Source: Rhodococcus tibetensis
Lineage (GTDB): Bacteria; Actinomycetota; Actinomycetes; Mycobacteriales; Mycobacteriaceae
Assembly: GCF_024438035.1 (NCBI RefSeq)
Contig: NZ_JANFQF010000001.1
Span: 186,001 to 250,000, forward strand
DNA length: 64,000 bases
Reading direction: 5' to 3'
The stretch's first letter is position 1; every line of letters begins with the position of its first letter. This document shows, piece by piece, positions 1 to 46,301 of the stretch. The position numbers and the translations under genes were made by a program. The notes under the pieces are model-generated. The model did not search any database and had not been told where the DNA came from. It worked only from the letters and a program-made list of their open reading frames with translations.

Positions 1-990
1 GAGGAAACCAGGGCGAAGCAAGCTGCCATGCTCGTCAATCTGGACCCGCCGGACCATACTCGGTTGCGCCAGTTGGTCAGTCGCGGATTCACGCCGCGCA
101 TGGTCAAGTCGCTGGAGGCGCACATCCGGGACATCTGCTCGCAAATCGTCGACGACCTACTCGAGGCGGGAGAGGTCGATTTCGTGCCCCGCGCCGCGGC
201 CCCCCTGCCGCTCGAGGTGATCGCGGCTCTCCTCGGCGCGCCCTCGTCGGACGTCGACAGACTCTACGACTGGTCCAACCGGATGATCGGCTTCGACGAC
301 CCCGAGTACGGCACCACCCAGGCGGACGGCGAGCTCGCGGCGATGGAAATCTTTCTGTACGCCAATGAATTGGCGGCCGAACGGCGCAGAGAACCGCGTG
401 ACGACATCGTCACCAAGTTGGTCCAGCCGGATGAGAACGGCGACACCCTCACCGAGATGGAATTCAACATGTTCTTCGTTCTCCTCGTGGTCGCGGGGAA
501 CGAAACGACGCGTAATGCCACGGCGGGCGGCATGCAGGCTTTCATCGACAATCCCGAGCAGTGGCGCCGATTGCAGGCCGGGCCCGAACTTGCCGCGACC
601 GCGGTCGAGGAGATCCTGCGGTGGGTCACGCCGGTGATGGATTTCCGGCGCACCGCAACTCGTGATGCGATGATCGGTGACCAGCCGGTTGCTGCGGGTG
701 ACAAGGTGGTCATTTACTACCCCAGCGCCAACCGTGACGAGGATGTGTTCGAGGAGCCGTACCGCTTCGATATCGGACGAACGCCCAACCCGCACGTCGC
801 TTTCGGTGGCAGCGGAATCCACTTCTGCCTCGGTGCGCACCTGGCGCGACTGGAGTTGCGGATCCTGTTCGAGACGATGGCCGCCCGAATCGACCGCGTA
901 GAACCGACCGGCCCCGTGACGCGATTGCGATCGAACTTCATCAGTGGCATCAAGACGATGCCCGTGCGAATTCACCCGCGCCGACGGTAG
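1..990 (+). CDS. Cytochrome P450, 5'-truncated by the window edge (CYP124/125/142-like)
   Basis: The reading frame is already open at base 1, so the N-terminal part (roughly the first 80-100 residues) lies outside the window; the ATG at 28 is internal. The visible part has the P450 I-helix motif AGNETT, an ExxR-type helix (EEILR) and the heme-binding loop FGGSGIHFCLG with the axial cysteine. The tail motif SNFISGIKTMPV resembles the sterol/lipid terminal hydroxylases CYP124, CYP125 and CYP142, so oxidation of a steroid or branched lipid is likely but not shown. It is cytosolic and needs a ferredoxin partner; one is encoded at 4975. It ends 52 nt before the TetR gene. Membership of the same transcript is possible, but there is a promoter-like sequence in the gap. 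Confidence 0.9.
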   Translation, partial: EETRAKQAAMLVNLDPPDHTRLRQLVSRGFTPRMVKSLEAHIRDICSQIVDDLLEAGEVDFVPRAAAPLPLEVIAALLGAPSSDVDRLYDWSNRMIGFDDPEYGTTQADGELAAMEIFLYANELAAERRREPRDDIVTKLVQPDENGDTLTEMEFNMFFVLLVVAGNETTRNATAGGMQAFIDNPEQWRRLQAGPELAATAVEEILRWVTPVMDFRRTATRDAMIGDQPVAAGDKVVIYYPSANRDEDVFEEPYRFDIGRTPNPHVAFGGSGIHFCLGAHLARLELRILFETMAARIDRVEPTGPVTRLRSNFISGIKTMPVRIHPRRR

Positions 991-1005
991 ATCGAGGGAT
1001 TTTCG

Positions 1006-1047
1006 TTGCCAGGCCGACTAAACTGTAGTAGCGTCCAGACACGTGTC
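1006..1047 (+). promoter_or_regulatory. Promoter and palindromic operator of the tetR/cyp51 operon
   Basis: TTGCCA (1006-1011) and TAGCGT (1029-1034) are separated by 17 bp. Transcription would start near 1041-1043, which is the GTG start codon of the TetR gene, so the message may be leaderless. A perfect 10-bp palindrome GACACGTGTC (1038-1047), within a repeated TCCAG context, covers the predicted start site and the GTG. It is a plausible autoregulatory operator. It is unlike the KstR box found elsewhere in the window. Confidence 0.45.
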
Positions 1048-1615
1048 CAGTAAGATGAGTTTCGAGTCCACCCGCCGTCGCCTGACCGAAAAGCAGGCCG
1101 ATACCGTCGACCGTCTGACCAAGGCAGCTGTCGAGGTGTTGCGGGCAGAAGGATTCGCCGGCCTCACCGTCCGATCGGTGGCCGGGCTCGCCGGGGTGGC
1201 CCCGGCGACTGCGTACACGTACTTCTCTTCCAAGGAGCACCTCGTCGCCGAAGTGTTCTGGCGCCGCCTCGCCGCTTCACCGGAGGAGGCTGACGCGAGT
1301 CTCGACCGGACGGGACGGGTGGTGGCAGTGCTGCGGCACATCGCGCTGTTGGTCGCCGACGAACCGGAGTTGGCCGGCGCGGTCACCAGCGCATTGCTCG
1401 GCCGGGACCCCGATGTGGAGCACCTGCGCACGCGGATCGGAATCGAGATCCGGCAACGACTTGCGGACGCACTCGGCAGCAATCCCGATCCGGACGTACT
1501 CGAGTCACTGGAGCTGCTGTACGCCGGTGGGTTGGTTCGCGCGGGCATGGGCTACGGGTCGTACACCGAATTCGCAGATCGACTGGAAACTTCCGCCAAG
1601 CTGATCCTGGAGTGA
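1043..1615 (+). CDS. TetR-family transcriptional regulator of the cyp51 operon
   Basis: The product is 190 aa from the GTG at 1043; an in-frame ATG at 1055 gives 186 aa. The N-terminal HTH is typical of TetR: a helix ending in LRAEGFAGLTVRSVA, then GVAPATAYTYFSSKEHLV, the DNA-recognition and anchor segment. The C-terminal part is the variable ligand-binding helical domain. It heads a run of genes that overlap or are only a few nt apart (next start 6 nt after its stop), the same position as TetR gene Rv0767c beside cyp123-cyp51 in M. tuberculosis. It probably represses its own operon through the palindrome over its start. The ligand may be a sterol or CoA ester; this is inference. Confidence 0.88.
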   Translation: MSSKMSFESTRRRLTEKQADTVDRLTKAAVEVLRAEGFAGLTVRSVAGLAGVAPATAYTYFSSKEHLVAEVFWRRLAASPEEADASLDRTGRVVAVLRHIALLVADEPELAGAVTSALLGRDPDVEHLRTRIGIEIRQRLADALGSNPDPDVLESLELLYAGGLVRAGMGYGSYTEFADRLETSAKLILE

Positions 1616-1621
1616 ATACAC

Positions 1622-2848
1622 ATGACCGCAGCGTCGATCCCCGGAGCGTCACTCGATCCGGTGACGTTCAATCCCTACGATTACGCCTTTCATGAGGATC
1701 CCTACGTCACCTACCGCCGACTGAGGGAAGAGGCGCCGGTCTACTACAACCCGGAACTCGACTTCTGGGCGCTCTCGCGGCACGAGGACGTCGTTGCAGC
1801 GTTCCGGGACAACACGAGGCTGTCGAGCGCCAACGGTGTGTCTCTCGATCCGGCCGCCTACGGTCCGAAGGCGTACAAGACGATGTCGTTCCTGGCGATG
1901 GACGATCCGCGCCACATGCGGATGCGGCAGTTGGTCTCCCGGGGTTTCACGCCTCGGCGTGTCAACGAACTGCACGGGCGTATCGAGGATCTGACGACAC
2001 AGTATCTCGACCCCGCACTCGCGTCCGGGGAGTTCGACTGGATCGCGGAGTTCGCGGGCAAGCTCCCCATGGACGTCATCTCGGAACTGATGGGTGTCCC
2101 GGAAACGGACCGTTCCGAACTGCGGCGACTCGCCGACCTGGTGGTGCACCGGGAGGAAGGTGTCCTGGACGTTCCCCAGGCGGCCATGGAGGCGTCGCTG
2201 TACCTCGTGGGTTACTACGCGGACATGATCGCCGAGCGGCGCAAGAGGCCTGTGGACGATCTGACGTCGGCCTTGCTCGAGGCCGAGATCGATGGTGATC
2301 GGCTCACCGACGACGAGATCATCGCGTTCATGTTTCTCATGGTGGTGGCGGGCAACGAGACCACCACGAAGCTGCTCGGCAACGCCCTGTATTGGGGCTC
2401 GAAGTTTCCCGAGGAGGCGCGCAAGGTCCTCGGTGACCAGAGCCGGGTGCCGGAATGGGTGGAGGAGACGCTCCGCTATGACACCTCGAGTCAGATGGTG
2501 GCCCGCACCGCGGCGGTCGACGTCTCCTTGCACGATGCGACCATTCCGGCGGGGGACAAGGTGCTGATCCTGATCGGTTCCGCGAACCGCGACTCGGCCG
2601 TATTCGACGATGCGGACGAGTACCGCATCGGCCGGGACAGCAGCAACAAGCTCGCGAGCTTCGGCGGCGGCACCCACTTCTGCCTGGGCGCGCACATGGC
2701 CCGTCTCGAAGCGAAGATCGCGCTGACGCAGCTGGTCGAAAAAGTCGAGAGTTTCGAAGTGGACGAAACGAATTCTGTGCGAGTCCATTCGACCAACGTC
2801 CGAGGTTTCGCCTCGCTTCCTCTGAAAGTGCAGGTCCGTCATGCCTAG
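1622..2848 (+). CDS. Cytochrome P450, CYP123-like
   Basis: A complete 408-aa P450. The I-helix reads VVAGNETTTK, the ExxR helix EETLR, and the heme loop FGGGTHFCLGAHMA carries the axial Cys. The length is normal for a soluble bacterial class I P450. Its place directly upstream of an SDR and CYP51 matches cyp123 (Rv0766c) in M. tuberculosis, and that synteny is the basis for the subfamily call. The substrate is unknown. The stop overlaps the start of the SDR by 8 nt, so the two are probably translationally coupled. Redox partner: most likely the ferredoxin at 4975. Confidence 0.88.
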   Translation: MTAASIPGASLDPVTFNPYDYAFHEDPYVTYRRLREEAPVYYNPELDFWALSRHEDVVAAFRDNTRLSSANGVSLDPAAYGPKAYKTMSFLAMDDPRHMRMRQLVSRGFTPRRVNELHGRIEDLTTQYLDPALASGEFDWIAEFAGKLPMDVISELMGVPETDRSELRRLADLVVHREEGVLDVPQAAMEASLYLVGYYADMIAERRKRPVDDLTSALLEAEIDGDRLTDDEIIAFMFLMVVAGNETTTKLLGNALYWGSKFPEEARKVLGDQSRVPEWVEETLRYDTSSQMVARTAAVDVSLHDATIPAGDKVLILIGSANRDSAVFDDADEYRIGRDSSNKLASFGGGTHFCLGAHMARLEAKIALTQLVEKVESFEVDETNSVRVHSTNVRGFASLPLKVQVRHA

Positions 2849-3622
2849 GTTCGAGCCCCATTCGCCGCGGCGCCCCGCAATCATCAGCGGTGCCTCCTCG
2901 GGTATCGGTACCGCAACCGCCTATGCCCTTGCCGAACTCGGCCATCCCGTGGCTCTAGGGGCCCGCCGAGTAGCGGAATGCGAGGTAATCGCCGACAAGA
3001 TCCGGAGCAACGGTGGTGACGCTTTCGCGCACTTCCTCGACGTCACGGACACGGCGTCCGTGAGCGACTTCGTGACAGCAGCCGAGAACACCTTCGGTCC
3101 GACGGAGATCGTGCTGTCCGGCGCAGGCGACCTCGAGTTCTCCACCGCACACGAGATGGATCCCGACCAGTTCCTGAAGCAGGTCGATGTACACCTCGTG
3201 GGTGCGCAGCGGCTCGCGCATCGCATTCTTCCCGGCATGATCGAACGCAAGCGTGGTGACTTCGTGCTGATCGGATCGGATTGCGCAGACTCACCACGTC
3301 CGCGGATGGGCGCCTACAACGCTGCGAAAACCGGTGTGGAGGCGATGGGCAGGCAGATGCGGATGGAGTTGGAAGGCACCGGTATCCGTGCGTCCATCGT
3401 CCGTCCCGGACCCACGCAGACCGCCATGGGCATGAACACCACCGAGGAGGTCATCGGACCCGTCCTCGAGGACTGGGCGAAATGGGGATTCGCCCGCCAC
3501 TCCTACTTCTTGCGTGCGTCCGCGATCGCTGATGCCGTCGTCGCCACCGTGAGTGCGCCCCGCGGGGCGCACCTGGTGCTGATCGAGGTTCAGCCCGAGG
3601 CGCCCCTGCGAAAGGACGTCTC

Positions 3623-3626
<4 letters not shown>
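2841..3626 (+). CDS. Short-chain dehydrogenase/reductase (Rv0765c-like)
   Basis: A 261-aa classical SDR with a Rossmann fold. The nucleotide-binding motif GASSGIG is near residues 18-24, and the catalytic Tyr-Lys pair is in YNAAK. The usual NNAG motif is replaced by LSGAGD. The family oxidises or reduces hydroxyl/keto groups with NAD(P)(H). Placed between two P450s, it probably handles an alcohol or ketone made by one of them, perhaps a sterol intermediate of 14-demethylation. It overlaps the P450 upstream by 8 nt and cyp51 downstream by 4 nt (ATGA). The same gene order (Rv0766c-Rv0765c-Rv0764c) occurs in M. tuberculosis. The substrate is not known. Confidence 0.87.
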
Positions 3627-5181
<1,555 letters not shown>

Positions 5182-5193
5182 AGGAGACGCCTG

Positions 5194-5772
5194 ATGTCCC
5201 AGTTCGATCGAAGGATCGGCCCGGCGGTGCAGTTCGATCGCGCCGAGCTGGACGAGATGGTGCAGCGGTGGATAGACGAGAACAAGCGCTGTGAATCGCT
5301 CGGCGACTGGAAGCCGCTCGCCGAGATGTACACAGTGGACGCCACCTACGGATGGAACTACGGCCCCAAGGACGACTTCATGGCCGTCGGCCGCGACGAA
5401 ATTCGAGACCTGGCGCTCGGGCAGGAGATGGAGGGGCTGGACGGCTGGGAGTACCCGTATCAGAAAATTGTCATCGATGACCGCAGCGGCGACGTCATCG
5501 GGTTCTGGAAACAGGTCTCCGACCGCACTCGTGAGGACGGCACCCACTATCAGGTGTACGGGATCGGCGGCAGCTGGTTCCGCTACGGCGGCAACTTCCA
5601 ATGGTCGTGGCAGCGTGACTTCTTCGACTTCGGTAACGTCTCTGCCCTGTTCCTCGAGATGATCACGAACAACGCGATGTCCGACGGTATGAACGCGCGT
5701 ATCGCGCGATCGACCTCCGGCCGGCTTCCCGGGTGGTACCCGTTGGGCCAGGCCCCGGTTCCGTTGTGGTGA
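5194..5772 (+). CDS. NTF2/SnoaL-like protein of unknown function
   Basis: A 192-aa protein starting at an ATG preceded by AAGGAG. The N-terminal helix (DEMVQRWIDENKRC), the segment PLAEMYTVDATYGWNYGP and the following aromatic-rich strands look like the cone-shaped NTF2/SnoaL fold used by ketosteroid isomerases, dehydratases and cyclases. The length is above the usual 130-150 aa because of a C-terminal extension. No catalytic residue can be assigned with confidence. It lies 12 nt after the ferredoxin and overlaps the next gene by 4 nt, so it is part of the cyp51 operon. It may act on, or bind, a product of the P450/SDR steps; this is inference. Confidence 0.72.
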   Translation: MSQFDRRIGPAVQFDRAELDEMVQRWIDENKRCESLGDWKPLAEMYTVDATYGWNYGPKDDFMAVGRDEIRDLALGQEMEGLDGWEYPYQKIVIDDRSGDVIGFWKQVSDRTREDGTHYQVYGIGGSWFRYGGNFQWSWQRDFFDFGNVSALFLEMITNNAMSDGMNARIARSTSGRLPGWYPLGQAPVPLW

Positions 5773-7022
5773 GTGCCGTGCGGGTTCCCACGTCGTTCGC
5801 GGACCTGTCCCGTGAGGATCTCGCGGTGCTCGTGCCGGAACTGCTCCTGTGTGGTCATCTGATCGATCGCTCCGGGATGCCGCACCTGATCGGCGCGTTT
5901 GGACGCGAGGGAATGACGCAGGTCGCGATCGAAGAGTGGATGGCGGCGAGCCCGATCTACACCAAGCGGATGCAGCGCGCGCTGGCGTTCGAGGGCGACG
6001 GCGTGGTGACCATCTTCAAGGGCCTGCAGCTCGACATCGGCGCGCCCCCACAATTCATGGACTTTCGATACCGCGTGATCGATCACGATCACGGTGAGTT
6101 CTGGCTCGACCACTGTGGCGCCCTCATGGACGTGGAGCCGATGGGGGACGAGTACGTCACCTCGATGTGTCACGACATCGAGGACCCGACGTTCGACGCG
6201 ACCGCGCTGGCCACCAATCCGCACGCGCAGGTGCGACCGGTGCACCGTCCGCCCCGGCGCCCGGCGGATCGCACTCCGCACTGCAAGTGGACTGTGACCA
6301 TCGACGACGCACACACACCACCGCCGGTGCCCAAGGGTCTGGTGACGCTCGGCAGGTCGAGGGCCGCCGCGGTCGAGTTGTCGCCCATCGACACCAGTGA
6401 ACCCGGCCGCCATGATTACTCGGATGCACTCCTGAGCGATCTGAGGTTCTCGGAGTTCTCCCATTCGGCGCTCGTCCGGATGGCGGAGGAAGTGTGCCTG
6501 CAACAGCACCTGCTCACGCTCGGATTCCTGTTGGCGGTGCGGTCACGCACCGACGAGGCGTCGGCGATGACGATCGCACGCAAACAATTCACCGGTATCG
6601 CCGGACTCACGTCCGAGCGGATCCGGAATGCGCTCGGACTGCCGGACGACCTCGAGGGACTCGCAGCAGTGCTCGCCGTCCACCCGGCGCTCAATCCCCG
6701 TCAGTACGTCGATGTGACAACCACACTCGCAGATCGTCTCTTTCTCACCATTCGGAGGGACTGTGGGGCCGACGCAGACGGTGCCTGGCTCTCGATGATC
6801 GACGGCGCACACCTGCAGCCGCTCGACGCGCTGCTGCGCGGGGTATCGCCGCGCTTCTCCGCACGTGTCATCGAGGAGACGGATACGGCGCTCACGGTGG
6901 AGGTCGTCACAGGCAAGGCACCCACCAAGGAGGCATCCGAGGTGGCGCTCACCCGGTTCAGCACGGGCGCCGACTTCGCCTTCACCGACCGCGGCATACC
7001 GCTACCCCTCACTGTCGTCTGA
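5769..7022 (+). CDS. Conserved protein of unknown function, 417 aa
   Basis: I do not recognise this protein with confidence. The GTG at 5769 overlaps the previous stop (GTGA); a second GTG at 5778 is possible. It is soluble, with no signal peptide or membrane segment. The middle part has a Cys/His-rich stretch (FWLDHCGALMDVEP, later SMCHDIEDP and HCKWTV) that could bind a metal or nucleophile and faintly recalls the L-2-amino-thiazoline-4-carboxylate hydrolase family; that link is a guess. The C-terminal third is helical, Leu/Ala-rich. It sits between the NTF2-like gene and a steroid-CoA-ligase-like gene, 14 nt before the latter, so it probably takes part in the same pathway. Confidence 0.7.
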   Translation: MSAVRVPTSFADLSREDLAVLVPELLLCGHLIDRSGMPHLIGAFGREGMTQVAIEEWMAASPIYTKRMQRALAFEGDGVVTIFKGLQLDIGAPPQFMDFRYRVIDHDHGEFWLDHCGALMDVEPMGDEYVTSMCHDIEDPTFDATALATNPHAQVRPVHRPPRRPADRTPHCKWTVTIDDAHTPPPVPKGLVTLGRSRAAAVELSPIDTSEPGRHDYSDALLSDLRFSEFSHSALVRMAEEVCLQQHLLTLGFLLAVRSRTDEASAMTIARKQFTGIAGLTSERIRNALGLPDDLEGLAAVLAVHPALNPRQYVDVTTTLADRLFLTIRRDCGADADGAWLSMIDGAHLQPLDALLRGVSPRFSARVIEETDTALTVEVVTGKAPTKEASEVALTRFSTGADFAFTDRGIPLPLTVV

Positions 7023-7036
7023 AAGAGGACAAGTCC

Positions 7037-8653
7037 ATGGCATACAACCTTGCCGACCTCTTCGAACACTCCGTCGACGTCATGCCGGACCGGGTTGCGC
7101 TGATTGCGGCCGGACGGCGGATCACCTACCGCGAACTCGAGGACCGGGCCAACCGCCTGGCCCACAACTTCCGGAGGGCGGGCCTGACCGCGGGCTCGCA
7201 TATCGGTGTGCACCTGCATAATTCGATCGAGACGATAGAGACGCTGCTGGCCGCCTTCAAGATCCGAGCAGTTCCCGTCAATATCAACTACCGCTACACC
7301 AGCGACGAACTCGCGTACGTCTACGGCAACGCCGACTTGGAGGCCGTCGTCCATCATCGGATCTACTCGCCGCGGATCGCCGAAGTTTTGCCGTCGCTGC
7401 CGAAGATCCGGTACACCGTCGTCGTCGAGGACGACCTCGGTGGTGCCGGGGTGCACAGTGAATCCGTGCCGTACGAGGAAGCGCTGTCCGGCAGCGGCCG
7501 AAGGGACTTCGACGAGCGCAGCAACGACGATCTGTTCATCATGTACACCGGCGGCACCACGGGACGTCCCAAAGGTGTCGTGTGGACGCACGAGTCCATC
7601 TGGCGAGTTCTCGCCGGCGGCCTCGACTTCTACACCGGTGAGGCCATCGAAGACGAATATCAGCAGTCCCGTGTGGGGTCCGAGGGCGATCCGACGTTGT
7701 GGTTCGCGTTGCCCCCGCTGATTCATGCGGCGGCGATGATGCCGACCCTCACCGCGCTGTTCAGCGGCAACACAGTGCTTCTGGAGTCGAAATTCGATCC
7801 GCACCGGACCTGGGAATTGGTCGAGCGACACCGGGTGCAGATCCTCATCATCACCGGGGATGCGATGGGACGTCCGCTCATCGAGGCTCGTCAGTCCTCG
7901 CGCACCGACACGTCCAGCCTCGCGGTGGTCGCGTCGGGTGCGGCGCTGTTCTCGCCGGTGATCAAGGATGCGTTTCTCGAAGAGTTCCCCGACCTGGTGG
8001 TGTCGGACTCCATCGGCGCCTCCGAAACAGGCTTCGGAGGAATTGGATTCGCGACCAAGGGGGAGAAGCAAGTGGGTGGCCCGAGGGTACCCGCCGGACG
8101 GTATGCCATGGTGATCGGCGACGACAACCGTCCCATCGAGCCCGGCTCCGGCAAGGACGGCTGGTTCGCCAAGGGCGGCTACGTCCCGCTCGGTTACTAC
8201 AACGATCCCGAGAAGACGAGGGAAATCTTCCGGGAGGTCGACGGCAAGCCCGTCGTGGTCACCGGTGACCGTGCGCGCATCGAGGAGGACGGTTCGATCA
8301 CTCTGCTCGGGCGCGGCAACATGGTGATCAACACCGGCGGTGAAAAGGTGTTCGCCGAAGAGGTCGAGAGCGTGGTGAAGGCGTATCGAGACGTCTACGA
8401 CGCCATCGTCGTCGGTGTGCCCGACGAACGCTGGGGGCACCGAGTCTCCGCAGTGGTGCAGCCACGCGATGCGGGAATCGACTTCGACGGCCTCGAACAG
8501 CACGTGCGGCAGAGTCTCGCCGGGTACAAGATTCCGCGGCTCGTATGGGTGGAAGGCGCTGTACAGCGCACACCCAGCGGCAAACCTGATTACCGCTGGG
8601 CGCAGGGCGTCACCAAGCAGCGCGAACCCGACCACCGCGTCATGTCCGGCTGA
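7037..8653 (+). CDS. Acyl-CoA synthetase of the FadD19/steroid-CoA-ligase type
   Basis: A 538-aa ANL-superfamily ligase. The ATG at 7037 follows AAAGAGGA at good spacing. Motifs in order: YTGGTTGRPKG (P-loop), SIGASETG (adenylate pocket), the hinge region after VTGDRARIEEDG, and the C-terminal catalytic lysine in SGKPDY. The sequence is visibly related to FadD19 at 20947 (ADLFEHSVDVMPDRVAL vs ADLVEHAIDLVPDRVAL). It would activate a carboxylic acid to an adenylate and then a CoA thioester. In this operon the acid is probably formed by P450 oxidation of a steroid-like molecule. Its last 14 nt overlap the convergent HTH gene. Confidence 0.88.
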   Translation: MAYNLADLFEHSVDVMPDRVALIAAGRRITYRELEDRANRLAHNFRRAGLTAGSHIGVHLHNSIETIETLLAAFKIRAVPVNINYRYTSDELAYVYGNADLEAVVHHRIYSPRIAEVLPSLPKIRYTVVVEDDLGGAGVHSESVPYEEALSGSGRRDFDERSNDDLFIMYTGGTTGRPKGVVWTHESIWRVLAGGLDFYTGEAIEDEYQQSRVGSEGDPTLWFALPPLIHAAAMMPTLTALFSGNTVLLESKFDPHRTWELVERHRVQILIITGDAMGRPLIEARQSSRTDTSSLAVVASGAALFSPVIKDAFLEEFPDLVVSDSIGASETGFGGIGFATKGEKQVGGPRVPAGRYAMVIGDDNRPIEPGSGKDGWFAKGGYVPLGYYNDPEKTREIFREVDGKPVVVTGDRARIEEDGSITLLGRGNMVINTGGEKVFAEEVESVVKAYRDVYDAIVVGVPDERWGHRVSAVVQPRDAGIDFDGLEQHVRQSLAGYKIPRLVWVEGAVQRTPSGKPDYRWAQGVTKQREPDHRVMSG

Positions 8654-11699: not shown

Positions 11700-11713
11700 T
11701 AGAACGTGTTCCA
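11700..11713 (+). promoter_or_regulatory. KstR box upstream of cyp125
   Basis: TAGAACGTGTTCCA fits TnnAACnnGTTnnA at all defined positions. It lies 39 nt before the cyp125 start codon. Core promoter elements for cyp125 are not obvious by eye. The site, with the one at 11622-11635, controls the divergent fadA5/cyp125 pair. Confidence 0.75.
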
Positions 11714-11752: not shown

Positions 11753-13009
11753 GTGGCGCAGCCCAATCTTCCAGAGGGTTTCGACTTCACCGACCCGGAC
11801 ATCTATGCAGAGCGCATCCCCTACGAGGAGTTCGCCGAGCTGCGTAAGACTGCGCCGATCTGGTGGAACCCGCAGCCGCCGGAGGTCGGTGGCTACCACG
11901 ACGACGGCTACTGGGTCGTGAGCAAGCTCGACGACGTCAAGGAGGTGTCGCGGCGCAGCGACGTGTTCTCCACCCACGAGAACACCGCGATTGTCCGCTT
12001 CGCCGACGATATTCCGCGCGAGAACATCGAGATGCAGCGCTTCATCCTCATCAACAAGGACGCGCCCGAGCACACGAAGCTCCGCAAGTTGGTTGCCCGC
12101 GGATTCACACCACGCGCGATCAACAGCCTGCGGGACGAACTCACCGAACGCGCCGAGAAGATCGTCAAGGAAGCCGCGGAATCGGGTGCCGGCGACTTCG
12201 TCACCCAGGTCGCGTGCGAACTGCCCCTGCAGGCCATTGCCGAGCTTCTCGGCGTGCCGCAGGAGGATCGTCTCAAGGTCTTCGACTGGTCGAATCAGAT
12301 GACCGGATACGACGATCCCGAACTGGACATCGACCCCCAGGCGGCGTCGATGGAGATTCTCGGTTACGCGTACCAAATGGCCGATGAGCGCAAGAAGTGC
12401 CCGGCCAACGACATCGTCACCACGTTGATCGAAGCCGACATCGAGGGAAACGAACTCTCTCCCGAGGAATTCGGCTTCTTCGTCATTCTCTTGGCGGTGG
12501 CCGGAAACGAGACCACGCGTAACGCAATCACGCACGGCATGATCGCATTCCTCGACCATCCCGACCAGTGGGAGCTCTACAAGAAGGAACGCCCGAAGAC
12601 GGCAGCCGACGAGATCGTTCGCTGGGCCACCCCGGTCAATTCCTTCCAGCGCACGGCGCTCGAAGACACCGAGCTGGGAGGGGTGCAGATCAAGAAGGGT
12701 CAGCGAGTCGTAATGCTCTACGGTTCAGCTAATTTCGATGAGGACGCCTTCGACAATCCCGAGAAGTTCGACATCATGCGGGAGAACAATCCGCATGTCG
12801 GCTTCGGTGGGACGGGTGCGCACTTCTGCCTGGGCGCGAACCTCGCCCGGCTCGAAATCGACCTGATCTTCAATGCCATCGCAGACCACCTGCCCGACAT
12901 CAGTAGGCTGGGAGATCCGCGGCGTCTGCGCTCGGGTTGGCTCAACGGCATCAAGGAGTTCCAGGTGGACTACAAGACGACGTCTGGCGGCTGCCCGGTC
13001 AAGCACTGA
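11753..13009 (+). CDS. cyp125: Steroid C26(27)-monooxygenase CYP125
   Basis: A 418-aa P450 starting at GTG 11753 behind AGGAGA. It aligns by eye along its whole length with M. tuberculosis CYP125: LPEGFDFTDPDIYAERIP, RGFTPRAI, the I helix AVAGNETTRN, PVNSFQRTAL, heme loop GFGGTGAHFCLGANLA, and the tail GWLNGIKEFQVDY. CYP125 oxidises the terminal methyl of cholest-4-en-3-one to the acid and so starts side-chain degradation. It is divergent from fadA5 with two KstR boxes in the gap and ends at a strong hairpin. Electrons probably come from FdxD or a similar ferredoxin. Confidence 0.96.
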   Translation: MAQPNLPEGFDFTDPDIYAERIPYEEFAELRKTAPIWWNPQPPEVGGYHDDGYWVVSKLDDVKEVSRRSDVFSTHENTAIVRFADDIPRENIEMQRFILINKDAPEHTKLRKLVARGFTPRAINSLRDELTERAEKIVKEAAESGAGDFVTQVACELPLQAIAELLGVPQEDRLKVFDWSNQMTGYDDPELDIDPQAASMEILGYAYQMADERKKCPANDIVTTLIEADIEGNELSPEEFGFFVILLAVAGNETTRNAITHGMIAFLDHPDQWELYKKERPKTAADEIVRWATPVNSFQRTALEDTELGGVQIKKGQRVVMLYGSANFDEDAFDNPEKFDIMRENNPHVGFGGTGAHFCLGANLARLEIDLIFNAIADHLPDISRLGDPRRLRSGWLNGIKEFQVDYKTTSGGCPVKH

Positions 13010-20946: not shown

Positions 20947-22623
20947 GTGGCCCTTAATATCGCAGACCTCGTAGAGCACGCAATCGATCTCGTTCCGGAC
21001 CGCGTCGCGTTGGTGTCCGACGACCGGGAAGTGACGTACGCGCAGATGGAGGAAAGGGCCAATCGCCTCGGCCACTACCTGCGCGAACAGGGTGTCCAGC
21101 CCGGCGACAAGGTGGGCATCTACTGCCGCAACACCATCGAGGCCATCGAGGCCATGGTGGCGGTCTTCAAGATCCGTGCCGTGATGGTGAACGTCAACTA
21201 TCGGTATGTCGAGAACGAGTTGCAATATATCTTCGAGAATTCGGACATGGTTGCCCTCGTTCACGAGCGTCGGTACTCCGACAAGGTGGTCGCAGTGCTG
21301 CCCCGGACGCCTCTCGTGAAGACCGTCGTGGTCGTCGAGGACGGGACAGATCTCGACTACTCGTCGTACGGCGGCGTCGAATTCGAGACGGCGTTGGCGC
21401 AGGGTTCCCCCGAGCGCGACTTCGAGGAGCGCAGCAACGACGACATCTACATGCTCTACACAGGCGGCACCACGGGTAAGCCGAAGGGCGTCATGTGGCG
21501 GCAGGAGGATGTCTGGCGAGTGCTCGGCGGCGGCATCAACTTCATGACCGGTGAGTACGTCGAGGACGAGTGGGATCTTGCCAAGCAGGGCGCCGAGACC
21601 GCCGGCATGACCCGCTTCCCGGTTCCGCCGATGATTCACGGCGGCAGCCAGTGGGCCACCTTCCAAAGCCTGTTCGGTGGCGGCAAGTGCGTCATGCATC
21701 CGGAGTTCGACGGCCACGACGTGTGGCGCATCGTCGATCAGCACAAGGTCAATCTCGTCTTCATCACCGGTGACGCGATGGCGCGACCGATGCTCGACGC
21801 ACTGATCGAGGGCAACCCGGCCACCGGTGAGCCGTACGACCTGTCGTCGCTGTTTCTGATGGCCAGTTCGGCCGCGCTGTTCTCGCCGAGCATCAAGGAA
21901 AAGTTTCTGGAACTCCTGCCCAACCGGATGATCACCGATTCGATCGGCTCGTCCGAAACCGGGTTCGGCGGATTGAGTGTGGTGGAGAAGGGCAAGTCCC
22001 ACGGCGGCGGACCTACGGTGAAGATCGACGCCTCCACCTCGGTCATCGACGACGACGGAAACCCGGTGGAGCCCGGCTCGGGCAAGGTCGGCATCCTCGC
22101 GCGCAAAGGACATATTCCGATCGGTTACTACAAGGACGAAGCGAAGACAAAGGCGACGTTCAGGGAATTTCACGGCGTCCGCTACTCGATCCCGGGCGAC
22201 TTCGCGCAGGTGGAGGTGGACGGCACGGTCACGATGCTCGGACGTGGTTCGGTGTGTATCAACAGCGGCGGCGAGAAGATCTTCCCCGAAGAGGTGGAAG
22301 GCGCGCTGAAGTCGCATCCGGACGTGTTCGACGCCCTGGTGGTCGGTGTACCCGACGAGCGATTCGGCCAGCGCGTCGCTGCCGTCGTCCAGACGCGCGG
22401 CGGGGCGCGTCCCAGCCTGCACGAGATTGCCCTGGCCGCGCGCAACGAAATTGCCGGATACAAGGTGCCGCGCAGCCTGTGGTTCGTGGACGAGATCAAA
22501 CGTTCGCCTGCGGGTAAGCCCGACTACCGCTGGGCCAAGGAACAAACGGAGTCCCGACCGGCCGATGACCACAACGGCAACGGTTCGCCCCAGAGCAACA
22601 CCGTGACGAGCAAAGGCGCGTAA
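20947..22623 (+). CDS. fadD19: Steroid-CoA ligase FadD19
   Basis: A 558-aa ANL ligase from GTG 20947. It matches M. tuberculosis FadD19 from the first residues (VALNIADLVEHAIDLVPDRV) to the end. Motifs: LYTGGTTGKPKGVMW (P-loop), DSIGSSETGFGG, GRGSVCINSGGEKIFPEE, and the catalytic Lys in SPAGKPDYRWA. In R. rhodochrous FadD19 is essential for degradation of C24-branched sterol side chains. No ribosome-binding site precedes the GTG, and the predicted transcription start falls on it, so a leaderless message is likely. The stop overlaps the next start (TAATG). Confidence 0.94.
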   Translation: MALNIADLVEHAIDLVPDRVALVSDDREVTYAQMEERANRLGHYLREQGVQPGDKVGIYCRNTIEAIEAMVAVFKIRAVMVNVNYRYVENELQYIFENSDMVALVHERRYSDKVVAVLPRTPLVKTVVVVEDGTDLDYSSYGGVEFETALAQGSPERDFEERSNDDIYMLYTGGTTGKPKGVMWRQEDVWRVLGGGINFMTGEYVEDEWDLAKQGAETAGMTRFPVPPMIHGGSQWATFQSLFGGGKCVMHPEFDGHDVWRIVDQHKVNLVFITGDAMARPMLDALIEGNPATGEPYDLSSLFLMASSAALFSPSIKEKFLELLPNRMITDSIGSSETGFGGLSVVEKGKSHGGGPTVKIDASTSVIDDDGNPVEPGSGKVGILARKGHIPIGYYKDEAKTKATFREFHGVRYSIPGDFAQVEVDGTVTMLGRGSVCINSGGEKIFPEEVEGALKSHPDVFDALVVGVPDERFGQRVAAVVQTRGGARPSLHEIALAARNEIAGYKVPRSLWFVDEIKRSPAGKPDYRWAKEQTESRPADDHNGNGSPQSNTVTSKGA

Positions 22624-29676: not shown

Positions 29677-30441
29677 ATGGTAGACCTCCTCGAGGTGCCG
29701 TTGCGTGCGGTCGGTGGGTTCTTCACGATGTCGGCCGAGACGCTCAAGGCGGTGTTCTCGAGGCCCTTCCAGCGTCGCGAATTCGTGGACCAGGCGTGGT
29801 TCGTCGCCCGGGTGTCGATGGTTCCCACGGTGCTGGTCGCCATCCCGTTCACCGTTCTGGTGAGCTTCACCATCAACATCCTGCTTCGGGAGATAGGTGC
29901 GGCGGATCTCAGTGGTGCGGGCGCGGCGCTCGGGACGGTGACCCAGGTGGGTCCCATCGTGACCGTGCTCATCGTGGCCGGGGCGGGCGCCACCGCGATC
30001 TGCGCAGATCTCTCGGCCCGCACGATCCGCGAAGAGATAGACGCGATGCGAGTGCTCGGCATCAATCCGATTCATCGGCTGGTCGTACCCCGCGTGCTCG
30101 CCTCGACCGTCGTGGCACTCCTGCTGAACGGCCTCGTCTGCACTATCGGCATTCTCGGAGGATTCATCTTCTCCGTATACATCCAAGACGTGAATCCGGG
30201 GGCGTTCGTCAACGGCATCACCTTGCTCACGGGGTTCGGTGAGCTCGTGATCTCGGAGGTCAAAGCCGGTCTGTTCGGAATGATCGCCGGCCTTGTCGCG
30301 TCCTACCTCGGTCTCAATGTGAAAGGTGGCGCCAAGAGTGTCGGCGACGCCGTCAATCAGACCGTCGTGTTCTCGTTCATGGCTCTGTTCGTGGTCAACG
30401 TTCTCGTCACCGCCGTCGGTATCAAGCTGACGGCAGGGTGA
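29677..30441 (+). CDS. yrbE4A: Mce4 permease subunit YrbE4A
   Basis: A 254-aa MlaE-family integral membrane protein, clearly YrbE4A: RVSMVPTVLVAIPFTVLVSF, NILLREIGAADLSGAGAALGT, GAGATAICADLSARTIREEIDAM and VLGINPIHRLVVPRVLAS match M. tuberculosis Rv3501c. The EExDAM motif is the predicted contact to the ATPase. It forms the permease of the Mce4 sterol importer with YrbE4B. Start ATG 29677 behind GAGGAGGA. No Mce ATPase (MceG) gene is in the window; as in mycobacteria it is probably encoded elsewhere. Confidence 0.96.
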   Translation: MVDLLEVPLRAVGGFFTMSAETLKAVFSRPFQRREFVDQAWFVARVSMVPTVLVAIPFTVLVSFTINILLREIGAADLSGAGAALGTVTQVGPIVTVLIVAGAGATAICADLSARTIREEIDAMRVLGINPIHRLVVPRVLASTVVALLLNGLVCTIGILGGFIFSVYIQDVNPGAFVNGITLLTGFGELVISEVKAGLFGMIAGLVASYLGLNVKGGAKSVGDAVNQTVVFSFMALFVVNVLVTAVGIKLTAG

Positions 30442-30465
30442 TCGATCGACATGGTGGTGGAGTAG

Positions 30466-31317
30466 ATGGCTCTCGCAGCGACCGGGCGTTTTTCCGGCAC
30501 ACGCAGGCGATTCGCGTCGGCGAACCGTTCGATCGACCGCCTCGGTGAGCAGGCGCTGTTCTTTGCGCGCGCAATCGCCTGGGCCCCTCGCGCCGTGACG
30601 CGATACCCGAAAGAAACTCTCCGGCTCATCGCCGAGATCAGCATGGGCACGGGTGCGCTGGCGGTGATCGGTGGAACAGTCGTGATCGTCGGATTTCTGA
30701 CGCTCTTCACCGGTGGCACCATCGCGGTGCAGGGATACAGTTCGCTCGGCAACATCGGTGTCGAAGCACTCACCGGCTTCTTCGCCGCCTTCATCAACGT
30801 CCGTATCGCAGCCCCGGTCATCGCGGGCATCGGCCTGGCCGCCACGATCGGCGCAGGCTCGACGGCCCAGCTCGGTGCCATGCGCGTCTCCGAGGAAATC
30901 GATGCCCTCGAAACGATGGCGATCCCGTCGATTCCGTACCTGGTCAGCACCCGAGTGATGGCCGGAATGATCGCGATCGTTCCGCTCTACGCGCTTGCTG
31001 TGATCGCGTCGTTCATCGCCAGCCGATTCGCCACCGTAGTTCTCTACGATCAGTCCGCCGGCGTGTACGACCACTACTTCTCGACGTTCCTGATACCGAC
31101 GGACATCCTGTGGTCGTTCGCTCAGGCAATCGTCATGGCGATCGCCATCATGCTCATCCACACCTACTACGGTTTCACCGCGTCGGGTGGTCCCGTCGGC
31201 GTCGGCGTGGCCGTGGGCAACGCGGTGCGGTCGTCGCTGATTGCGGTGGTCACGGTCACCCTGCTCATCTCCCTCGCCATCTACGGCGGCTCCGGCAACT
31301 TCAACCTTTCGGGATAG
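30466..31317 (+). CDS. yrbE4B: Mce4 permease subunit YrbE4B
   Basis: A 283-aa MlaE-family membrane protein, second permease subunit. It has an N-terminal cytoplasmic stretch of about 50 residues, then hydrophobic segments around GALAVIGGTVVIVGFLTLFT, GFFAAFINVRIAAPVIAGIG, and the coupling motif VSEEIDALETMAIPSIPYLV. It pairs with YrbE4A in the inner membrane to form the channel through which sterol passes from the Mce4A-F ring. It starts 24 nt after yrbE4A and is followed 12 nt later by mce4A. Confidence 0.95.
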   Translation: MALAATGRFSGTRRRFASANRSIDRLGEQALFFARAIAWAPRAVTRYPKETLRLIAEISMGTGALAVIGGTVVIVGFLTLFTGGTIAVQGYSSLGNIGVEALTGFFAAFINVRIAAPVIAGIGLAATIGAGSTAQLGAMRVSEEIDALETMAIPSIPYLVSTRVMAGMIAIVPLYALAVIASFIASRFATVVLYDQSAGVYDHYFSTFLIPTDILWSFAQAIVMAIAIMLIHTYYGFTASGGPVGVGVAVGNAVRSSLIAVVTVTLLISLAIYGGSGNFNLSG

Positions 31318-42843: not shown

Positions 42844-44550
42844 GTGAAGACTGGTGGCAACGCAATTCTGCGTCGAGCTCTGGTGCGCAATCGTGTGCGC
42901 CTCGGTCTCGGCACAGTTCTGGTCTGCGTGCATCAGGTGGCCGAAACGCTCGTGCCGATCGCAATCGGAGTCATCGTCGACCGTGCGGTCGCGACGGGCG
43001 ACACGTCAGCTCTGGTCGCCTGGATGTGTGCATTGGCTCTGCTTTTCCTCGTTCTCACCGCAGCGTGGCGGTTCGGCGCCCGATTCATCGTGCTGGCGAT
43101 GCAGAGCGAGGGACACAAACTGCGGATGGAGGTGGCGCACCGAATACTCGACCCCCGCGGCGTGCGCACCGACCTACGCGCCGGGGAGTTGCTCTCCGTG
43201 TCCTCGACTGATGCCGATCGATCCGCCTTCGTCGCAGACCTCGCGCCGCGCGCTGCCTCGGCCCTCACCGCTGCCATCGGGTCGGCTGTCGCACTGCTGC
43301 TCATCGACGTCCCACTCGGACTTGCCGTTCTCATCGGGACACCCGTCATCCTCGGGCTCCTGCAACGTGCGGCCCCGCTCATCACCCGACGAGCCACCGA
43401 CCAGCAAACCGCGGTCGCGCGGGCCTCCGCCATGGCCACCGACCTGGTGAGCGGGCTTCGTCCACTCCGCGGGATCGGCGCCGAGGAAGCGGCTTCGCAG
43501 CGTTACCGGAGCGCGAGCCGGGACGCCCTCGACGCCACCCTCCACACCGCGAGAAGTTCCGCGGCTTTCACCGGCGTGTCGATGACCGTCAGCGCACTGC
43601 TCGCCGTCGGGATCGCAGGATTCGCGGGATGGTTCGCACTGGAAGGGCGGATCACGGTCGGGGAGCTGATCACCGTGGTCGGCCTCTCGCAATTCTTCAT
43701 CGAACCGCTCGGCGTCCTGGCGGGCCTCCCCGGATCCCTCGCTCTCACCCGGGCGTCGGCAGATCGGGTGGCGTTGGTTCTGGACGCGGAACCGCTGCTG
43801 CCTGCGGGGTCAGGGCTCATCCCCGATGGCAGCGAACTGTCGTTGTCGGGTGTGACGTACCGGTCGCTCACCGCTCTCGACCTTCGGGTCGAGTCCGGTG
43901 AGCTACTCGGCGTCGTCGCCTACCGGCCGCAGGACGCCGAGGCGCTGGCCGCACTGCTGTCCGGGCAGGTCTCTCCGGAGCACTACGACGGAGAGGTGAC
44001 CGTCGGGGGAGTGCGACTCTCGGATGCAGACCTGAGGCACGCGCGACGGACGGTGCTGGTCGAACCCCACAACGGTGACCTGTTCTCCGGAACGGTTGCA
44101 TCCAATGTGACCGCGGGCCGACCTGATGCGCCGCAAGGCGAGGTCCAGGCGGCGCTTCGGGCGTCCGCAGCGGTGGATGTCGTCGATGCACACCCGGACG
44201 GTCTCGAGCACGAGGTGACGGACCGCGGGTCGTCCCTGTCCGGCGGACAACGGCAGCGCGTTGCGCTCGCCCGGGCGCTCATGAGGAGGTCACCGGTGCT
44301 GGTGCTGCACGATCCGACGACCGCGGTGGACGCGGTGACGGAACACATGATCGCCGGAGGAATCGCCGACTTGCGGCACAGCGACTCCGTGGGCAGCGGC
44401 CAGACGACTGTTCTCGTCACGAGCAGCCCTGCGCTGCTGTCGGTGACTCAACGCGTCGTCGTCCTCGGCGAGGGAACGGTCGTCGCCGAGGGCACGCACG
44501 CACAGTTGGCCGCCGAGGACGCGCAATACCGGCGGGCGGTGCTGCGATGA
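42844..44550 (+). CDS. ABC exporter half-transporter with degenerate nucleotide-binding site
   Basis: A 568-aa half-transporter from GTG 42844, 8 nt after GGGAG. The N-terminal six-helix domain (for example VCVHQVAETLVPIAIGVIVD) is of the ABC exporter (type IV) fold. In the ATPase domain the Walker A is lost: the expected GxxGxGKS/T reads VVAYRPQDAEALAALL. The signature LSGGQRQRVALARAL is intact. Walker B reads VLVLHDPTTAVD, with no catalytic Glu. It overlaps the next gene by 4 nt. The two halves probably form a heterodimer; the siderophore genes nearby suggest siderophore export, which is inference. Confidence 0.9.
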   Translation: MKTGGNAILRRALVRNRVRLGLGTVLVCVHQVAETLVPIAIGVIVDRAVATGDTSALVAWMCALALLFLVLTAAWRFGARFIVLAMQSEGHKLRMEVAHRILDPRGVRTDLRAGELLSVSSTDADRSAFVADLAPRAASALTAAIGSAVALLLIDVPLGLAVLIGTPVILGLLQRAAPLITRRATDQQTAVARASAMATDLVSGLRPLRGIGAEEAASQRYRSASRDALDATLHTARSSAAFTGVSMTVSALLAVGIAGFAGWFALEGRITVGELITVVGLSQFFIEPLGVLAGLPGSLALTRASADRVALVLDAEPLLPAGSGLIPDGSELSLSGVTYRSLTALDLRVESGELLGVVAYRPQDAEALAALLSGQVSPEHYDGEVTVGGVRLSDADLRHARRTVLVEPHNGDLFSGTVASNVTAGRPDAPQGEVQAALRASAAVDVVDAHPDGLEHEVTDRGSSLSGGQRQRVALARALMRRSPVLVLHDPTTAVDAVTEHMIAGGIADLRHSDSVGSGQTTVLVTSSPALLSVTQRVVVLGEGTVVAEGTHAQLAAEDAQYRRAVLR

Positions 44551-46301
44551 GTGAACTGCTCCCCATCGCGTCCGCAGGCCGCACCTGGGCATGGCTGAAA
44601 ACCGAGCTTGGCCGGCGGCGTGGACGAAGCCTGCTCACCCTGCTGGTCGCGGCCACCGCCGCTGCGATGGCACTGGTGCCCGTCTTTGTGTTCGGTGTTC
44701 TTGTCGACCGGGTGCAGGACGGCGCTCCGCCGTCGACGATCGGGTGGGTGGTCGCGGTGATCGCCGCGGCCGCTGTGCTCGGTGGGGCCTGCGCCGGTTA
44801 TGCGTCGTTCCTCATTCGAAGTCTCGGTGAGGGCATCCTGGCGGATCTGCGGGAGCGGACAATCGACCGTGCGCTACGCCTTCCGGTCCAGACGATCGAG
44901 CGCGTCGGCAAGGGCGACCTGTTGTCCCGGGTGGGCGACGACGTGGCTGTGATCGGCAAGGCCGTCACCGATGTGGTGCCCAACCTCGTGACGGCGATAC
45001 TTCTGGTGCTGCTGAGCGTCATGACGATGCTCGGCATCGACTGGCGTCTCGGGCTCGCGGGCATGGTGGCCTTGCCGATGTATGCGCTCGCCATGCGCTG
45101 GTACCTCCCGCGCTCGGCCCCCGTCTACGCGAATGAACGCGTGGCGATGGGCGAGCGCTCCCAGGCGCTGATCAGCAGCATGCAGGGCGCAAGCACCGTG
45201 CGGGCCTACGGTCTCGAAGACAGCCACCTCGGGAAGATCGACGACGCCTCACGGAGAACCCGGGATCTGTCCGTCGGCGTGTTCGCACTCTTCACCCGCT
45301 TCGCGGGGCGCGGCAACCGCGCCGAGTTCGTCGGTCTGGCGACCATCCTCGCCGTGGGTTTCGCGTTGGTGCAGCGTGACCTCGTGACCGTCGGGCAGAC
45401 CACCACCGCCGCCCTGCTCTTCCACCGATTGTTCAATCCGATCGGCATGCTCATGTACACCTTCGACGAGGTGCAGTCTGCGGGCGCGAGTCTCGCGCGG
45501 CTTGTCGGAGTGGTGGGGCGAAGAGACGACACCGTCAGAGTCGCAGGGGTCCCGGCTGCCGCGGAATCGACACTCGAACTGGTCGATGTCCGGCACACTT
45601 ACGACGACGAGCACGAGGTGGTGCACGGCATCAGCCTGCGCGTCGATCACGGCGAGCGTGTCGCGCTGGTGGGCTCGACCGGGGCCGGGAAGACCACTGT
45701 CGCGGCGATTGCGGCCGGGTCGATCGTCCCGACGTCGGGTTCGGTGCGCATCGGTGGCACGGCGCTGTCGGAGCTGCCGCCGCGCGAGCTCCGGCGTCGG
45801 GTGGCCATCGTCAGCCAAGAGGTGCATGTGTTCGCCGGGCCCCTCATCGACGACCTACGGCTGGCGGCGCCCGGTGCTTCCGAGGAAGACGCGGCAATGG
45901 CACTGAAGACGGTCGGTGCGGCCGATTGGGTGAACGCGCTGGCCGAGGGTGTTCGCACCGTCGTCGGCGAGGGTGGGCACGAACTGACCGCGGCGCAGGC
46001 CCAGCAGTTGGCCCTTGCCCGCCTCGTCCTCGCTGATCCCGCAGTCGCCGTCCTAGACGAGGCGACTGCAGAAGCCGGCAGCGCCGGTGCCCGGGACCTC
46101 GAGGCGTCCGCCGAAGCCGCGACCCGCGGTCGCACCACGCTGGTCGTGGCGCATCGGCTCACCCAGGCCGCCACCGCCGACCGCGTCGTCGTACTCGAAA
46201 AGGGCCGGATCGTGGAGGAAGGAACACATCGCGCGCTCGTCGCCGCGGGCGGTCGTTACGCGCAGCTCTGGTCGGCGTGGCACGGGCGTCAGCCCAGGTA
46301 G
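44547..46301 (+). CDS. ABC exporter half-transporter, partner subunit
   Basis: A 584-aa half-transporter. The membrane domain includes LLTLLVAATAAAMALVPVFV and FAGRGNRAEFVGLATILAVG. The ATPase domain has an intact Walker A (GSTGAGKTTVAAIA) and Walker B with catalytic Glu (VAVLDEAT), but its signature motif is degenerate (ELTAAQAQQLALARL instead of LSGGQ). This complements the first subunit, so the heterodimer would have one competent and one degenerate ATP site. The last 13 nt overlap the convergent formyltransferase gene. Confidence 0.9.
   Translation: MSELLPIASAGRTWAWLKTELGRRRGRSLLTLLVAATAAAMALVPVFVFGVLVDRVQDGAPPSTIGWVVAVIAAAAVLGGACAGYASFLIRSLGEGILADLRERTIDRALRLPVQTIERVGKGDLLSRVGDDVAVIGKAVTDVVPNLVTAILLVLLSVMTMLGIDWRLGLAGMVALPMYALAMRWYLPRSAPVYANERVAMGERSQALISSMQGASTVRAYGLEDSHLGKIDDASRRTRDLSVGVFALFTRFAGRGNRAEFVGLATILAVGFALVQRDLVTVGQTTTAALLFHRLFNPIGMLMYTFDEVQSAGASLARLVGVVGRRDDTVRVAGVPAAAESTLELVDVRHTYDDEHEVVHGISLRVDHGERVALVGSTGAGKTTVAAIAAGSIVPTSGSVRIGGTALSELPPRELRRRVAIVSQEVHVFAGPLIDDLRLAAPGASEEDAAMALKTVGAADWVNALAEGVRTVVGEGGHELTAAQAQQLALARLVLADPAVAVLDEATAEAGSAGARDLEASAEAATRGRTTLVVAHRLTQAATADRVVVLEKGRIVEEGTHRALVAAGGRYAQLWSAWHGRQPR

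Follow-up and report, generated by a model that had tools for sequence, protein, structure and literature searches.

An orphan protein accompanies CYP51 in an actinobacterial operon linked to sterol breakdown

Introduction

What sterol 14alpha-demethylase (CYP51) does in bacteria that lack a sterol-synthesis pathway has puzzled researchers ever since the enzyme was discovered in Mycobacterium tuberculosis. A 2019 review calls the physiological relevance of the enzyme in such bacteria unclear (PMC6469627). Here we describe the cyp51 operon of Rhodococcus tibetensis and the orphan protein of 417 aa (u417) that it encodes. The operon lies at the start of a 64,000-nt stretch, called the window throughout, which corresponds to positions 186001-250000 of contig C1 (NZ_JANFQF010000001.1) of the 5.81-Mb genome.

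Among the closest described systems is the Rv0760c-Rv0771 cluster of M. tuberculosis, of which we take Rv0760c and Rv0761c to be members. This cluster and the R. tibetensis locus agree in the order tetR-cyp123-short-chain dehydrogenase (SDR)-cyp51-ferredoxin-(Rv0762c), and both have an aldA arm that runs divergently (gene list in PMC10470581); Rv0762c-Rv0767c and the aldA-arm genes up to Rv0771 change together in RNA-seq under para-hydroxybenzaldehyde (PMC10470581, Table 2). A predicted motif upstream of Rv0767c is also given in PMC4482099, and Rv0767c sites are enriched for GAC and GTC (PMC10312376). In Mycobacterium sp. VKM Ac-1817D, a palindromic Rv0767c-like motif ('motif X') accompanies 14 operons, and phytosterol raised the expression of 12 of these more than 3-fold; the motif X operons include P450s, aldehyde dehydrogenases and SDRs, and two cases with both KstR and motif X sites are mentioned (PMC6593523). 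Among the phytosterol-induced genes are a steroid isomerase and P450 genes whose locus tags immediately precede that of the regulator G155_05115, and earlier studies of M. smegmatis and R. jostii RHA1 saw no induction of most motif X genes (PMC6593523). Because of their order relative to the regulator, these P450 and isomerase genes are probably the counterpart of the operon described here; cyp51 is not mentioned in the main text of that article.

The pairing of CYP51 with a ferredoxin recalls the C14 and C4 demethylation of sterol synthesis (eukaryotes; Methylococcus CYP51-ferredoxin, PMC9868604), but the operon analysed here occurs in genomes with KstR and CYP125, stands beside degradation genes and is tied to an orphan protein. 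It is physically adjacent to the KstR cholesterol regulon in the R. tibetensis genome, from which it differs by a separate repressor and operator.

An initial annotation of the window had put the CoA ligase of the operon in the foreground. Our analysis shifts the weight to u417 and the regulon: sterol catabolism is known, u417 is truly orphan. A sterol link of the CYP51 operon is strongly supported, and we hold it to be somewhat probable that this operon constitutes one arm of a sterol-catabolic module under TetR control, which would demethylate 14-methyl, 5alpha-H sterols for the cholesterol pathway.

Results

Gene order of the operon

Eight genes on the plus strand at window positions 1043-8653, with successive gaps of +6, -8, -4, -4, +12, -4 and +14 nt and several overlapping stop and start codons, form one tight operon, in the order and at the coordinates given by the initial annotation. 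They encode a TetR-family repressor (1043-1615; TetR_N match, Rv0767c orthologue by position and synteny), a CYP123-like P450 (1622-2848; named from gene order), an SDR (2841-3626; NCBIfam PRK07775 above cut-off), CYP51 (3623-4975; recognised by similarity to solved CYP51 and by conserved residues), a 3Fe-4S-type ferredoxin (4972-5181), an NTF2/SnoaL-like protein (5194-5772), u417 (5769-7022) and an acyl-CoA ligase (7037-8653). In and near the operon, 2 promoter-like and 3 terminator-like matches were counted, numbers that shuffled sequence reaches as well. The ferredoxin carries the CxxHxxC...CP motif described for M. tuberculosis Fdx (PMC9868604).

The last three genes had been described as an extension beyond the M. 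tuberculosis order. This applies to u417 and the ligase, by which the operon differs from the Rv0760c-Rv0771 cluster; the NTF2-like gene, however, occupies the Rv0762c place next to ferredoxin (Rv0763c) and cyp51, an assignment made by position only, with which four loci of genus g29 agree (L148, L149, L151, L152). In this genus, taken as Mycobacterium, the operon extends instead into a putative alcohol dehydrogenase and a KSI-like protein, and u417 is found elsewhere. A search of 297 genus-g29 genomes with M. tuberculosis CYP51 at E 1e-290 gave no match, probably because the threshold was too strict or the species lay outside the set, and has no bearing on u417 there. The NTF2-like family showed a weak SnoaL_2 match in all 39 aligned members (best E 3e-6), the window protein itself staying under the Pfam cut-off, and its structure model (mean pLDDT 46) was too poor for a fold search.

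The ligase matches NCBIfam PRK07798 with 731 bits (curated cut-off 543). A separate FadD19-type copy, 49% identical to it, is present at 20947-22569. Judged by association with Ltp, the operon ligase is not the FadD19 orthologue: relatives of the 20947-22569 copy (52-53%) adjoin Ltp-type genes in loci L200 and L206. We use FadD19 and Ltp as presumed names, and class the operon ligase as a FadD19 paralogue rather than FadD19 itself.

Co-occurrence of u417, the NTF2-like gene and CYP51

Named CYP51 loci were the best 80 of 506 confirmed matches in a scan of named genomes, with titles of Rhodococcus, Nocardia and close kin. u417 was found in the fetched DNA of 50 of these loci, the other 30 showing none there, and nearly always together with other operon genes, an association far beyond chance. 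Among the 50, ntf2 was adjacent in 49, ferredoxin nearby in 47, SDR and CYP123 were each present in 43, fadD was adjacent in 37 and tetR stood on the same strand in 31. In 33 of the 50, cyp51 itself preceded u417 in the same orientation at a distance of up to 4 kb; in many Nocardia it is outside the operon, standing nearby or elsewhere.

A fixed sample of 121 Mycobacteriaceae genomes (family set) contained u417 in 71 genomes, the NTF2-like gene in the identical 71 and a CYP51 call in 70. Genome G055, the one with the uncalled CYP51, shows the operon parts at two contig ends: L158 holds cyp123, SDR and a fragment of cyp51, and L157 holds ntf2/u417. We therefore read this case as an assembly break. 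Eight genera mix genomes with and without u417, the NTF2-like gene and CYP51, and G055 apart the trio is jointly present or absent in each genome, which argues against mere shared ancestry. The distance between the u417 and cyp51 starts in the 70 genomes with both was below 3 kb in 56, 3-20 kb in 6 and larger in 4, with the genes on different contigs in another 4.

A class-wide set of 394 evenly drawn genomes, 11 of whose CYP51-bearing members are also in the family set, contained CYP51 in 50 genomes, all with u417, and u417 in 52; u417 spans five labelled families and CYP51 four. The two sets together hold 109 genomes with a CYP51 call, and u417 is present in every one. The extra genes therefore travel with cyp51, as had been predicted, fadD being the least constant of the three.

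Five family-set genomes (G030, G077, G093, G100, G113) have a CYP123-level match and no CYP51, NTF2-like gene or u417; G077 keeps an aldA match and an SDR beside it (L161).

Link to sterol breakdown

KstR (NF033703) was detected in 96 of the 121 family-set genomes, in 95 above the curated cut-off, and a CYP125-level match (E up to 1e-140) in 93. All 71 u417 genomes have both, yet 25 KstR-positive genomes, 22 of these with CYP125, are without u417, so that the module looks like an optional add-on of putative sterol degraders.

Sterol-related genes follow u417/fadD in 37 of the 50 u417-bearing named loci, their type varying by clade; some of the 13 loci without such genes end at contig ends. A CYP125-like gene lies within 8 kb after u417/fadD in 29 loci and is, in the four closest to the window, the cholesterol-cluster cyp125 itself. 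MlaE/YrbE and Mce genes accompany the CYP125-like gene on the same strand in 11 of the 29, and their yrbE is 74% identical to genes at window positions 29677-31317. A cholesterol-oxidase-family gene (E 1e-77 to PDB 1b8s) follows in 8 of the 50 loci, and an orthologue of 3-ketosteroid Delta4-(5alpha)-dehydrogenase (Delta4-(5alpha)-KSTD; PDB 4at0, E 3e-277 for L013) is present in 25. Genome-wide, the latter occurred in 24/34 u417-positive versus 4/27 u417-negative genomes; it is associated with the module, and obligate membership was rejected on these counts. Fisher values for the genome and locus counts take no account of relatedness and do not serve as evidence by themselves. CYP51 substrates are 5alpha-H, Delta8-type sterols. 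The association is chemically telling because such substrates, after 3-oxidation, need 4,5-desaturation and not Delta5 isomerisation. Together with the KstR/CYP125 co-occurrence, these neighbours strongly support a link to sterols, the initial annotation having suggested a sterol-like molecule.

The same data bear on two other explanations. In one, the module would serve to synthesise or modify a hopanoid- or steroid-like lipid or secondary metabolite of the cell itself, instead of breaking down food sterols. This explanation could draw on the biosynthetic role of CYP51 elsewhere, on a long nonribosomal peptide synthetase (NRPS) frame in the same window and on the down-regulation of the M. tuberculosis operon with metal-response genes by an aldehyde (PMC10470581). 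We consider it improbable, since the module is restricted to KstR/CYP125-positive genomes in the family set, its neighbours are Mce-type importers, cholesterol oxidase and Delta4-(5alpha)-KSTD, and the motif of the regulator marks phytosterol-induced operons (PMC6593523). A still smaller likelihood attaches to pure detoxification of membrane-active triterpenoids or azole-like compounds, without net catabolism; TetR control, P450s and an aldehyde dehydrogenase would suit it, but the CoA ligase suggests that the compounds serve as food, as do the Mce importer and the sterol-entry enzymes of many loci.

Conserved residues in CYP51 and u417

The window CYP51 aligned over residues 5-448 with the solved M. 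tuberculosis-type CYP51 (E 3e-235) and is 92% identical to the CYP51 of R. jostii, R. opacus and R. koreensis. Beyond the mycobacterial type, the nearest solved relatives are further 'Cytochrome P450 51' entries, which we take to be from Methylococcus. Alignment of the window protein with those of the 80 named loci revealed Y76, F78, F83, H259 and the heme ligand Cys394 as invariant in 81/81 sequences, residues whose names and roles we assume from M. tuberculosis CYP51. The plant-type Phe78, present throughout, presumably corresponds to the position of an I-to-F change in a trypanosome CYP51. This single change turned that enzyme obtusifoliol-specific (PMC7908997). The CYP51 of Rhodococcus triatomae BKS 15-14 has been reported to demethylate lanosterol in vitro (review PMC11279926), and the same operon is present in this strain (L018). 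Some Nocardia (L041/L042, L055/L087) and G065 have two CYP51 genes in different neighbourhoods.

Searches with u417 gave no usable match in PDB, Pfam, NCBIfam or PHROGs, and its hydropathy showed no sign of a membrane helix. C116, C134, H135, E138, D139, H159, R160, C172 and W174 are invariant in 82 profile-matching frames (window and 120 loci, one genome counted twice), and also in three short forms from family f19 that were examined. With three Cys, two His and acidic residues among them, a metal site may be present, and u417 is a putative metal-binding protein. In five of six f19 genomes of the class-wide set only the N-terminal half of u417 matches; the half-length u417 of L194, L195 and L205 retains the invariant Cys/His set and has an operator, of the type described below, 50 nt upstream.

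A shared operator and the regulon

Palindromes at tetR revealed a predicted operator with a consensus near CYRGACANNTGTCYRG; in the window it reads CCAGACACGTGTCCAG and, at 1035-1050, overlaps the tetR start codon. Its occurrence was scored with GGACACGTGTCC, allowing up to 2 mismatches, over the 300 nt upstream plus 30 of genes in a neighbourhood set of 120 loci, of which L046 and L166 are the same genome (70 tetR loci thus being 69 distinct ones). The operator was found at tetR in all 70 loci with a tetR match, at aldA in 53/63, at cyp51 in 44/106 and at u417 in 8/81; 1.2-2.2 matches were expected from a plain base shuffle (2.2 of 81 for u417). Among the 80 named loci it precedes cyp51 in 43 of 47 stand-alone copies, many of them from related Nocardia and hence not independent, and in 0 of 33 in-operon copies.

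A separate promoter for the downstream genes had been named as a result that would speak against their belonging to cyp51. On this test cyp51 holds up, its stand-alone copies keeping the shared operator in 43 of 47 cases; the outcome for u417 is mixed. Within the operon its weak matches (3/61; L018, L035, L040) are at about shuffle level. Five of 20 copies not preceded by operon genes have the operator (L189, L194, L195, L204, L205), 6/20 when 600 nt were searched, so that the idea of u417 always keeping it outside the operon was rejected; this slightly lowers the odds of the sterol-demethylation module.

The operator agrees with the GAC/GTC enrichment reported for Rv0767c sites and may be the same motif as motif X. 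Likeness to the Rv0767c/G155_05115 regulon lies in a TetR orthologous by name and position, a palindrome at its own start codon and phytosterol-induced P450 and dehydrogenase operons; the difference is the side-chain role proposed there (PMC6593523).

The R. tibetensis genome has, besides the operator at 1035-1050, another at C1:181347 beside the divergent aldA arm. This arm encodes AldA, an SDR, a beta-hydroxyacid-dehydrogenase-like protein and a small protein that is of Rv0771 type by position and matched no NCBIfam model at E 1e-40. NCBIfam aldehy_Rv0768 matches the arm dehydrogenase of L013 above cut-off. aldA was found in 32 of the 50 u417-bearing named loci, whose ends often truncate the arm, and the arm recurs across families. 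Upstream of the window, at C1:181331-181362, an exact KstR-consensus match starts 16 nt from the TetR operator in the divergent aldA-arm/SDR promoter; near 1043, at the tetR/cyp51 promoter, no KstR site (TNNAACNNGTTNNA) with up to 1 mismatch was present.

The earlier induction studies of M. smegmatis and R. jostii RHA1 reportedly used cholesterol. Induction by a plant-sterol mixture but not by cholesterol fits methylated or otherwise unusual sterols, but also branched side chains. The regulon might serve to oxidise the side chains of 24-branched plant sterols (sitosterol, campesterol), as proposed in PMC6593523; its core would then be the FadD19 paralogue and the CYP125-like P450, and CYP51 would be minor or repurposed. 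The FadD19-like ligase in the operon, the CYP125-like gene following in 29/50 loci and the proximity of u417 to FadD19- and Ltp-type genes in L200 and L206 are in favour of this role. We nevertheless regard it as unlikely, because it is CYP51, u417 and the NTF2-like protein that are constant, as against 37/50 for fadD and 29/50 for the CYP125-like gene; the genome holds its separate FadD19-type copy; 25 KstR-positive genomes (22 with CYP125) do without u417; and the CYP51 active-site residues are invariant, with one orthologue reported to be lanosterol-active (PMC11279926).

Genes flanking the operon

The third P450 noted just upstream of tetR is present, on the plus strand, and CYP125-related. 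Only its 3' part (1-990) lies in the window, the whole gene covering C1:185776-186990 (404 aa), and its best solved matches are entries named CYP125MRCA, followed by CYP125 steroid C26-monooxygenases (E 1e-102). The CYP125-like protein of L013 showed 45% identity to the window part of this P450 and 62% to the cyp125 product downstream. The upstream P450 was rejected as an operon member and is probably outside the tetR transcript, because a 52-nt gap with the conserved operator separates the two genes.

Downstream, the operon abuts the cholesterol cluster, as indicated by a KstR-consensus site (11700-11713) and the cyp125 that it precedes (11753-13009, plus strand, outside the operon). We presume the name cyp125 from CYP125-type similarity and the KstR site. 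Three more exact KstR-consensus sites are present in the window (17728, 27842, 39869), where 0.16 would be expected.

Discussion

The evidence from co-occurrence, neighbourhood and regulation fits a module that would demethylate sterols before they enter the cholesterol pathway. Likely substrates would be lanosterol-, obtusifoliol- or cycloartenol-type sterols of plants, fungi and animals, which carry ring methyls and 5alpha-H and which the ordinary cholesterol pathway should not process directly. They may be imported by an Mce-type transporter (Mce-type genes in 11/50 named loci). CYP51, fed by the 3Fe-4S ferredoxin, would then remove the C14 methyl, as reported for the R. triatomae enzyme, and u417 with the NTF2-like protein may act on the resulting Delta8,14-diene, a step suggested by their near-obligate co-occurrence with CYP51. 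The C4 methyl could be lost by oxidative decarboxylation through CYP123, the Rv0768-type aldehyde dehydrogenase, the Rv0770-type beta-hydroxyacid-dehydrogenase-like protein and the SDRs of the divergent arm, an assignment made from chemistry. Delta4-(5alpha)-ketosteroid dehydrogenase or cholesterol oxidase, which often adjoin, would form the 4-en-3-one, the FadD19 paralogue and CYP125-type P450s would begin side-chain removal, and the products would feed into the neighbouring KstR cholesterol pathway. Release of the TetR repressor would be brought about by one of the substrates or intermediates.

Oxidation to an acid followed by activation through the ligase, the pathway that the initial annotation had suggested, suits the side chain, for which CYP125 and a FadD19-type copy outside the operon are present in the genome. 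What sets the operon apart is more likely the removal of methyl groups from the ring system.

For u417 itself we offer a tentative proposal, rather unlikely as it stands, that it founds a new metalloenzyme family and, with the NTF2-like protein, reduces or isomerises the Delta8,14-diene from CYP51. If true, the pair would do for sterol breakdown in actinobacteria what the sterol C14-reductase/Delta8-isomerase does in eukaryotes, and CYP51 would change from an orphan 'biosynthetic' enzyme to the first committed step of methylsterol degradation.

Several results weigh against the sterol-demethylation module. G173 and G453 of the class-wide set carry u417 without a CYP51 match. Delta4-(5alpha)-KSTD is missing in 10/34 u417-positive genomes, and the copy of the R. 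tibetensis genome is on another contig. A recognised Delta14-reductase or C4-methyl oxidase was not found in the operon, and these roles rest on chemistry. u417 adjoins the FadD19- and Ltp-type genes of L200 and L206 (family f29), which also fits a side-chain role, and this is the role that the authors of PMC6593523 favour. Moreover, 15/20 u417 copies not preceded by operon genes are without an operator within 300 nt upstream, among them the unlinked L147 and L150 and, at the end of the aldA arm, L149 and L152; co-regulation of u417 is therefore not supported at these copies.

The initial annotation had taken the operon as the best candidate for an undescribed pathway. In the open-licence PMC literature, as far as its text was available, we found no account of u417 or of a methylsterol-breakdown role for bacterial CYP51; the regulon, however, has been known as phytosterol-induced since 2019 (PMC6593523). 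The evidence narrows the puzzle of bacterial CYP51 towards sterol breakdown and supplies linked genes, an operator and, in u417, an uncharacterised companion of CYP51 in several families of actinobacteria. This would be of relevance for industrial phytosterol conversion, for the natural recycling of lanosterol-type sterols and for interpreting azole effects on these bacteria.

Further downstream in the window, an open frame of more than 5,200 codons (48299-64000, plus strand) runs off the window end. Its first 1,833 residues consist of NRPS domains (condensation, adenylation, carrier), and beside it lie an ABC transporter (44547-46301) and a formyltransferase (46289-47224, minus strand), an arrangement that we take to resemble formylated siderophore clusters.

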